Source: an uncultured Allomuricauda sp. (lineage in GTDB: Bacteria; Bacteroidota; Bacteroidia; Flavobacteriales; Flavobacteriaceae). From it: 64,000 nt of DNA. The position numbers were made by a program, and so were the translations under genes. Under the pieces are notes generated by a model. That model searched no databases. It had not been told where the DNA came from and was given only the letters and a program-made list of their open reading frames with translations. Positions 34,881-38,091 of the stretch are shown here, one piece after another (the stretch's first letter is position 1; every line of letters begins with the position of its first letter). Location of the stretch: positions 1 to 64,000 of the forward strand of contig NZ_CAKZYF010000210.1 in NCBI RefSeq assembly GCF_937884665.1, read 5' to 3'.

Positions 34881-35984
34881 TTACCAACGCTGATTCCGAA
34901 ATCCGTTGTTCTTCGCAAATTCTACAGTGGCCACCAGATAGTCTTCCAGATTGTATTTTGGAATGGGCAATATACTTTCCAAAAGGGTGGTATCCCATTC
35001 GCAAGGCCTTGATATTAAGTAAGGAGTAAGATGAACACCAATGGTCTCATAATAGAATTGCTCTAATTTGCTTTCAAATTCAGAAGCGGTATTTATCAAT
35101 TCCTGGGTCAACCTGAAATTTTTAAAGTTTACGGTCTCCAAAATTTTTACTATCCCATTAAATATGTTGGTCCCTTTGGAATTTACAATGTTCAGTTCTT
35201 GAATATCTGTGTCGAATACCTTGGCAATTACCTGGGCGACATAATCTGTTGGGATAATGTTGAGTTTGCTATCTTGATGCGCTTGAATCCTGACATGTTC
35301 AGAAGAAGGGCTTCTGTAAAAGAATTTCGCGAATAAATAAAAAACCATGTACTTGGAAATGAAAAAACTGGGACTCCCCATGATATTTCCACCTAGTACA
35401 CTCGGCCTTAGTATTTGAACAGAAATTTTGGCCTTGGCCCCTTCCCTGACCAAATACTTTTCGGCCGCATGTTTGGACGCCTCATAAAAATTGCGGTATT
35501 CGCTCTGCCCTGTATCCAGATAATTATTGCCCAAAAGGCCGTCCAGTTTACCAATGGAGAATGCAGTACTCACATAGATAAACTTGTATAGATAATCCTT
35601 GTATGCCACAAAAATGTCTTGGGTCAATGTCAGATTTTCGGCAAAGATTTCCGTTTTATTACTGGGGTCGGTCGAAAGATTTACAAATCCTGCAGAATGA
35701 ATAAAATAGTAACGGGTCCCTTTTTGGAGGAATACATCGGGTTGGAGCAAATGCTTTGCTTCAATAACCTCAATTTTTTGGAGAATGGTCTTTTTGTTTC
35801 TTTGAACAAAGACCGGGACAGAGATGCTGTTTAGCATATTCATCACCCGGGCATGCGCTGAAACCCGGTTCTTCTTTCTAACGATGACATATATTTTTTC
35901 TAGGGATTCTAGCCTGCTTTCAAGTAAGAAAAAGAGTAGTTGAGATCCTAAAGTGCCGGTGGCACCGGTTAAAACGATATGCAT
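34881..35984 (-). CDS. Extended SDR / thioester-reductase-like NAD(P)-binding protein
   Basis: This 367-residue protein has the Rossmann motif GATGTLG (residues 7-13) and the catalytic Tyr167-x-x-x-Lys171 pair (YEASK), with STAFSIGKLDG before it. The overall plan (FIHSAGFVNL, then a long C-terminal half) resembles NAD_binding_4 fatty-acyl/thioester reductases more than sugar epimerases, so reduction of a carrier- or CoA-bound acyl group is plausible. A phosphopantetheinyl transferase lies 1.5 kb away, but no carrier protein is seen. Substrate unknown. It stands downstream of ahcY behind a terminator. Confidence 0.75.
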   Translation of the reverse strand: MHIVLTGATGTLGSQLLFFLLESRLESLEKIYVIVRKKNRVSAHARVMNMLNSISVPVFVQRNKKTILQKIEVIEAKHLLQPDVFLQKGTRYYFIHSAGFVNLSTDPSNKTEIFAENLTLTQDIFVAYKDYLYKFIYVSTAFSIGKLDGLLGNNYLDTGQSEYRNFYEASKHAAEKYLVREGAKAKISVQILRPSVLGGNIMGSPSFFISKYMVFYLFAKFFYRSPSSEHVRIQAHQDSKLNIIPTDYVAQVIAKVFDTDIQELNIVNSKGTNIFNGIVKILETVNFKNFRLTQELINTASEFESKLEQFYYETIGVHLTPYLISRPCEWDTTLLESILPIPKYNLEDYLVATVEFAKNNGFRNQRW

Positions 35985-36020
35985 CTAACGTGGATTGATT
36001 TGTGAAAGCTCTAAAATAAG

Positions 36021-36045
36021 AAACCCTTGCGTTTTGCAAGGGTTT
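36021..36045 (-). terminator. Intrinsic terminator after ahcY
   Basis: A perfect 10-bp stem AAACCCTTGC/GCAAGGGTTT with a 5-base loop lies about 28 bases beyond the full-length ahcY stop on the minus strand, with T residues following on that strand. Its distance fits the full-length gene, not the truncated one. Confidence 0.8.
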
Positions 36046-36072
36046 TCGTTGTATAACAATGGTAATTAAAAT

Positions 36073-37389
36073 TTAATACCTGTAGTATTCGGGTTTAAAT
36101 GGACCTTCCACCGTAACACCGATATATTCCGCTTGATCTTTCTTAAGTTCAGTAAGTTCGGCTCCTAGTCGGGATAGGTGTAGTTTAGCTACCTTTTCAT
36201 CCAAGTGTTTCGGCAACATATAGACCTCATTCTTGTATTTGTCTCTATGGTTCCACAGCTCAATTTGTGCCTAGGTCTGGTTCGTGAATGAATTGCTCAT
36301 CACTAAGCTAGTGTGTCCTGTGGCACAACCTAGGTTTACCAGTCGTCCTTCAGCCAGAATAATAATATCCTTTCCATCCACGGTGTATTTATCAACTTGT
36401 GGTTTGATTTCGTCCTTGGTGTTGCCATATTCCCCATTGAGCCAAGCCATATCAATCTCATTATCAAAATGACCTATATTACAGACGATCGCCTTATCCT
36501 TCAGCGCTTTAAAATGCTCACCTCTAATAATGTCCTTGTTACCCGTGGTAGTAATAACAATATCAGCATTTCCAATTACGGACTCCAAGCGTTTTACTTC
36601 ATATCCGTCCATACAGGCCTGCAACGCGCAAATTGGGTCTATTTCAGTAACGGTAACGATCGCACCTGCGCCTCTAAATGAAGCGGCCGTACCTTTTCCT
36701 ACGTCTCCATAGCCTGCAACAACCACCCGTTTTCCGGCCAACATGGTATCCGTTGCTCTTCGAATGGCATCCACTGCACTTTCCTTGCAACCATATTTGT
36801 TGTCAAACTTGGATTTGGTAACGGAATCGTTCACGTTGATGGCAGGTATGGGCAATGTACCATTTTTAACCCGCTCATATAATCTATGCACCCCAGTGGT
36901 GGTTTCCTCGGACAGCCCCTTGATGGCAGACGCTAACTCGGGATATTGGTCCAGCACCATATTGGTCAGGTCGCCCCCATCGTCAAGTATCATATTCAAA
37001 GGTTCTCTGTCTTCTCCGAAGAAAAGGGTCTGTTCAATACACCAATCAAATTCCTCTTCGGTCATGCCCTTCCAGGCGTAAACGGGAATTCCGGCGGCGG
37101 CGATTGCAGCGGCAGCGTGATCTTGGGTTGAAAAAATATTACAAGAACTCCATGTGACCTCGGCTCCCAAGGCTACCAAAGTTTCTATCAATACCGCAGT
37201 TTGAATGGTCATGTGCAAGCATCCTGCAATACGCGCTCCCTTAAGGGGCTGTTCATCATGGTATTCATCCCGAAGGGCCATCAGCCCGGGCATCTCTGCC
37301 TCGGCCAGTTCAATTTCTTTACGGCCCCAGTCAGCAAGTGAAATATCCTTTACTTTGTAAGGAACATAGGGAATTGTTTTTGTGCTCAT
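36073..37389 (-). pseudogene. ahcY: Adenosylhomocysteinase with an in-frame amber codon at position 373
   Basis: S-adenosylhomocysteine hydrolase splits SAH to adenosine and homocysteine in the methyl cycle. The frame from ATG 37389 ([12 protein letters not shown]) to TAA 36073 would encode 438 residues, the family's usual length, with NAD-binding GYGDVGKG and all expected blocks. Codon 373 (36271-36273) is TAG between MSNSFTNQT and AQIELW, where relatives have Leu; a single change TTG to TAG explains it. The 65 codons after it stay in frame and end in the canonical FKPEYYRY, whose Lys and Tyr reach into the neighbour subunit's NAD site, so the truncated 372-residue protein should be inactive. 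TAG ends other genes here, so it is not a recoded codon. A sequencing error is the first alternative. Confidence 0.88.
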
Positions 37390-37426
37390 AGGTTTATTAC
37401 TTTTTGTAGCTTCGTCTTTCAGGGTG

Positions 37427-37434
37427 CAAAGATA
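37427..37434 (-). promoter_or_regulatory. -7 promoter element for ahcY
   Basis: On the minus strand it reads TATCTTTG, followed by CACC, 37 bases from ATG 37389. It rules out the longer frame that begins at 37437. Confidence 0.7.
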
Positions 37435-37455
37435 CAAATAGTTAAACTCTTATTC

Positions 37456-38091
37456 ATGCCCATTTACAAAAGCATAATGGTTTCCGCCCACACCCAGGTT
37501 TATCTTTGGAAAGTTACCGAGGCGGAAAAGGATTTGGCGAAGGGAATTGAGCTGACCGACCCCTGTCACCAAAGGATGCAGGCCATGAAATCTGAACTGC
37601 ATCGAAGAGCATTTCTTAGCATTAGGCATTTGTTGGGTAAGGCGGGTTATGAGGATAAAGACCTTTACTACAATGATTTTGGAAAGCCCCATTTAAGGGA
37701 TGGCAACCATGTTTCCATTACCCATTCCAACCATTTTACAGGCATAATTATTGGAAGAAAGGAAGAAGTTGGGATTGATATCGAAAGGCAACGCGAGAAA
37801 ATTCTGCGAATTGCACATAAGTTTACACCATTGCATGAATATCGGACTTTGGCGAATACCGAGGCCATTATCCGAAAATTGACCGTAGTCTGGGGCGCGA
37901 AGGAGTCTCTCTATAAAATTTATGGTCAACCCGGCTTGAGTTTTCTAAAACATATCGATGTTTCTGATTTTACCTTTGAGACGTCCAACACGAAGGCACA
38001 GATAAGATATCATGGTCAACAATCGGAATATCATGTGGATTTTTTGGAGTTTGAAGGATTTACCTGCGTCTATGCCCAACGCGAAGGATAA
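37456..38091 (+). CDS. 4'-phosphopantetheinyl transferase superfamily protein
   Basis: This 211-residue protein has the Mg-binding Asp108-x-Glu110 (GIDIERQ) and the WGAKESLYK motif (146-154) of the Sfp/AcpT group, with SITHSNHF before them. It moves the phosphopantetheine arm of CoA to carrier proteins. It is divergent from ahcY (66 bases between the start codons). Which carrier it serves is unclear; no PKS/NRPS genes are in the window, so it may be the housekeeping ACP activator. ATG at 37477 is an alternative start. Confidence 0.85.
   Translation: MPIYKSIMVSAHTQVYLWKVTEAEKDLAKGIELTDPCHQRMQAMKSELHRRAFLSIRHLLGKAGYEDKDLYYNDFGKPHLRDGNHVSITHSNHFTGIIIGRKEEVGIDIERQREKILRIAHKFTPLHEYRTLANTEAIIRKLTVVWGAKESLYKIYGQPGLSFLKHIDVSDFTFETSNTKAQIRYHGQQSEYHVDFLEFEGFTCVYAQREG

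Follow-up and report, generated by a model that had tools for sequence, protein, structure and literature searches.

The closest described systems to the locus examined here are the SAH hydrolases of the AhcY/SahH family (TIGR00936, PF05221). In the mammalian enzyme, as set out in the part of the source available to us (PMC4647836), residues 352-354 form the C-terminal hinge and residues 386-432 the C-terminal domain, and Lys426 and Tyr430 contact the NAD of the neighboring subunit. Archaeal SAH hydrolases with a shortened C-terminus do without the Lys426/Tyr430 contacts and yet work, according to an extract of the report on them (PMC10978960), which suggests that losing these contacts alone need not be fatal. 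Among Bacteroidetes, sahH was present and luxS absent in all 29 isolates of one survey (PMC2233627, partial text). A precedent of another kind comes from public assemblies, in which many “pseudogenes” with internal stops are assembly errors (PMC11017572, partial text). The gene described here, an ahcY on the minus strand of a 64,000-nucleotide stretch of DNA (the window, the whole of the DNA analyzed) from an uncultured Allomuricauda sp., resembles the AhcY/SahH enzymes in that its codons 1-372 by themselves exceed the TIGR00936 cut-off (564.9 bits against 497.6) and its frame aligns to congeners over 438 residues; it differs from them in a stop at codon 373 and in Thr360 and Leu362, which occupy otherwise invariant columns. 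Like the archaeal short enzymes, its product as read is without the Lys and Tyr contacts, but here the stop precedes the whole C-terminal domain (386-432 in mouse, about 392-438 here) rather than just the last residues. With the spurious pseudogenes, so far as the partial text describes them, it has in common that the genome is a draft and that a single internal stop breaks a gene otherwise under constraint, and it differs from them in having three departures within 42 bases and a contig that otherwise seems clean. Our findings point, with modest confidence, to a local sequence or assembly error in the draft as the most likely origin of the stop, the choice between such an error and a real mutation being one that we infer; most likely, no novel decoding is involved. 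If it is an error, a few miscalled bases in a draft can give the false impression that an important housekeeping gene is missing and that the organism cannot recycle SAH. If the stop is genuine, the species lacks, or is now in the course of losing, the one SAH route detected in its assembly, and its way of coping would be of interest.

The ahcY locus and its internal stop

The features on which the argument turns are as follows (window coordinates).

36274..37389, minus strand: the part of ahcY (SAH hydrolase) before the internal stop, codons 1-372 (open frame; TIGR00936, 564.9 bits)
36271..36273, minus strand: in-frame TAG, codon 373 (read from the sequence; the sole stop listed for this gene in the genome search)
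36271..36312, minus strand: patch of codons 360-373, holding all three departures (360, 362, 373) from columns at least 99% conserved (deep alignment)
36076..36270, minus strand: the conserved, open remainder of ahcY past the stop, codons 374-438, which includes Lys432 and Tyr436 (alignment, constraint)
36073..36075, minus strand: TAA, the end of full-length ahcY (read from the sequence)
36021..36045, minus strand: terminator-like hairpin past the full-length stop (1 found, shuffle mean 1.8)

The frame runs from an ATG at 37389 to the TAA at 36075-36073, comprising 438 codons plus the stop and ending in FKPEYYRY, and every codon except the TAG at 36273-36271 is open, including the 65 codons 3' of it. 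Read through the stop, it aligns to a relative in the genus, G004, at 96.3% identity across all 438 residues, which argues that the open frame past the TAG is not there by chance; across the congeners aligned end to end, identity over the 438 residues is 90-96%. The coordinates, the frame and the length of 438 codons given in the original prediction hold in both the sequence and the alignment. So does its placement of a terminator for the full-length gene, the hairpin at 36045-36021 lying just 3' of the TAA, though as the sole hairpin in 35900-37600, where shuffled sequences average 1.8, it counts for little on its own. When mapped with an offset of 6 in alignment to the 432-residue mammalian enzymes, residues 360, 362 and 373 match mammalian residues 354, 356 and 367, and Lys432 and Tyr436 match Lys426 and Tyr430. 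The tail had been predicted to carry the Lys and Tyr that complete the NAD site of the neighboring subunit, and these residues do follow the stop, their role being that described in the available part of PMC4647836. Judged from the sequence, a product ending at residue 372 would be without the whole C-terminal domain; this domain, with its NAD-contacting Lys and Tyr, lies outside the product as read and inside it only if the TAG is unreal or read through.

Departures around the stop and the state of the contig

All 71 genus genomes searched contain ahcY, and the internal stop is found in the focal genome alone (0/70 others, among which the G014 copy runs off its contig after the codon-373 site). 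Column 373 is Leu in 108 of 109 related loci and Ile in 1 of 109. Among named genomes, most hits fall in the Flavobacteriaceae, the family to which the focal genome would accordingly belong. In a wider family profile search (TIGR00936), 370 of 397 genomes scored above the cut-off, with no internal ahcY stop among the matches listed, which do not include the focal genome. The proposal that a single change from a leucine codon gave the stop agrees with the Leu that most relatives have there; its picture of a lone hit does not stand, the TAG being one of three clustered departures. In a deep alignment of 139 loci (130 distinct sequences), 243 of the 438 columns are at least 99% conserved, and the focal ahcY departs from these near-invariant columns only at 360, 362 and 373, all within 14 codons. 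Codons 360 and 362 (window 36304-36312) encode Thr and Leu where 130/130 distinct relatives have Pro and Phe, and the gene is thus not quite the “otherwise perfect” one that had been described. The chance that three departures would all fall within 14 codons, given three, is 0.003, a value computed post hoc with the cluster already seen. A control set every one of 131 distinct sequences in turn against the rest. With the threshold at 99%, three departures in 14 codons occur in the focal ahcY alone, while at looser thresholds such clusters appear in 2 (97%), 10 (95%) and 18 (90%) of the 131, the focal sequence included. When only 4-5 relatives are used for each gene, the shuffle fraction of the ahcY cluster is 0.0475, which is not exceptional; genes with a fraction below 0.05 number 5/41 in the focal genome against 1/42, 0/40 and 3/42 in three relatives treated alike, and departures from shared columns in the same few-relative comparison amount to 366/8438 in the focal genome against 141/8293 in G009, 125/7590 in G023 and 292/8325 in G008. 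The ahcY cluster therefore stands out only against the deep alignment.

At the nucleotide level, the gene was compared with 22 congeners, of which G004 is the nearest (a further locus, L020, was partial and left out). In codons 374-438, the differences from G004 are 35.0 synonymous at 39.2 sites and 5.0 non-synonymous at 155.8 sites, a pattern in which the tail looks constrained; as synonymous change relative to these congeners has reached saturation, it gives no date for the stop. Residues unseen in the 22 congeners number 10 in the focal ahcY, stop included, and 0-9 in each congener. An old or established pseudogene is rejected, given the constraint on the tail relative to G004 and the confinement of departures from the columns at least 99% conserved to codons 360-373. 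Over 124 kb of the contig, 103 ORFs of G004 were matched at 45% identity or above, and 8 of the alignments hold a stop, one of them ahcY. All of the other seven were read, and in each the stop lies near the start, 5' of what looks like the real start codon. No other of the 103 orthologs on these 124 kb is convincingly interrupted, which argues that the contig is not generally bad. Elsewhere in the window, a trypsin-like peptidase ORF (PF13365; 5368-6732, minus strand) has no match listed in the fetched stretches of G004 and G009, and an aldo/keto reductase ORF (PF00248; 50628-51614) falls at a place where the flanking genes of G004 stand about 12 kb apart, an interval for which no window match is listed.

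Probable local error, possible recent mutation and the clearance of SAH

A stop that lies within a small cluster of atypical bases, in a gene that is intact in relatives, is most likely either a local error or a very recent mutation. Under a local error, an ordinary single-copy ahcY would have been miscalled at three places in the 42-base patch 36271-36312, one of them yielding the stop, and the living organism would make a normal full-length SAH hydrolase. The singleton status of the stop (0/70), the three-fold cluster in 14 codons, the lack of decay elsewhere in the gene, the single copy, the failure to find LuxS or TIGR01704 and the draft state of the genome (216 contigs, 96.91% complete, 4.19% contaminated) all favor an artifact, against which count the otherwise clean 103 orthologs of the contig and a cluster that is unexceptional with 4-5 relatives or at looser thresholds. 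The original prediction had named a second ahcY and a LuxS or nucleosidase route as places to look, and within the assembly each came out negative: profile and DNA searches found no second ahcY, and neither LuxS nor the MTA/SAH nucleosidase TIGR01704 was detected. The DNA search, made with 391 bases around the patch, matched only itself, and the weaker TIGR00936 matches, C163 and C193, cover mid-model positions 203-300 and 203-291 (about 90-100 positions) at 24-25 bits, far under the cut-off. Two PF01048 proteins match the purine nucleoside phosphorylase model above its cut-off and uridine phosphorylase models below theirs, and by these scores look like purine nucleoside and uridine phosphorylases. 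With no second ahcY, LuxS or SAH nucleosidase found in the assembly, a genuine loss would be expected to carry a cost.

A plausible, though distinctly less probable, source of the three changes in one 42-base patch is a genuine clustered mutation event of recent date, such as error-prone repair might produce, and it would leave a truncated, probably inactive 372-residue enzyme with no further decay yet. Real clustered mutations would give the same picture as an artifact, with the same cluster and the same singleton pattern, and they are consistent with a remaining contig that looks clean. Loss is possible in principle, since some genomes of the family and order have no ahcY, a TIGR00936 match being missing from 8 of 397 family genomes and a PF05221 match from 3 of 39 relatives, but ahcY loss without a replacement should carry the cost noted above, and the focal genome is without the TIGR01704 nucleosidase that 5 of 7 ahcY-poor genomes carry. 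These seven were picked for an absent or very weak ahcY match (G061 and G166, two of the 8 matchless genomes, with G289, G286, G271, and G025 and G031 from the PF05221 search), and the nucleosidase is missing in G271 and G286.

Decoding of TAG and the makeup of the assembly

Both read-through of the stop and a mixed assembly or hidden copy are less likely than local error or clustered mutation. That the TAG is real and read through often enough for full-length enzyme, whether through near-cognate decoding or through a suppressor tRNA that escaped detection, strikes us as very unlikely. The conserved tail and the failure to find another SAH route in the assembly would suit it, as would the high read-through under stress reported for E. 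coli reporters in the available part of PMC11126739, but release factor 1 is intact (505.7 bits, cut-off 423.25), TAG ends 31 of 118 contig ORFs (not all of them necessarily genes), the in-frame codon is conserved in none of the 70 congeners, and read-through would leave the departures at 360 and 362 unexplained. TAG is also ahcY's own end in 4 of 22 congeners, and with release factor 1 whole and TAG in ordinary stop use, code reassignment is rejected. No CUA anticodon was found among 29 tRNAs from an Rfam tRNA search and ARAGORN, a list whose incompleteness (150 of 254 candidates scored, with Trp, Tyr, Thr and Ile tRNAs absent among those read) leaves read-through some room. A CUA-loop pattern, of a design that catches 27 of the 29 known tRNAs, returned 14 matches, fewer than the 24 of the reversed pattern; ARAGORN called tRNAs at two of these 14 loci, Leu(tag) and Arg(tct), but nothing at the remaining 12, so that no CUA tRNA is present there by its calls. 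The tRNA-Sec model (Rfam RF01852) gave 6 weak matches under the cut-off, at the sites of known Ser and Leu tRNAs. The suggestion of amber read-through or suppression thus gained no support from release factor 1 or from the search for a suppressor tRNA, made on that incomplete list. None of the papers listed in a limited literature search on ahcY amber readthrough mentions ahcY, and we do not claim that such a case is unpublished. Harder still to credit is the fuller account in which the TAG is real, ahcY, as the sole SAH route found in the assembly, is expressed via read-through or a missed suppressor, and Thr360 and Leu362 are tolerated in the C-terminal hinge segment.

It is highly improbable that strain or species mixing in the assembly made the patch, or that the assembly misses a second, intact copy: contamination of 4.19% and completeness of 96.91% would allow for either, but Thr360 and Leu362 occur in 0/130 distinct relatives, from which it follows that no examined homolog could have donated the patch and a donor among them is rejected, and the 391-base search matched only itself. 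As a separate observation on the draft, several tRNA genes lie within a few bases of contig ends (e.g., L114, L120, L123 and L133), as if the assembly breaks there.
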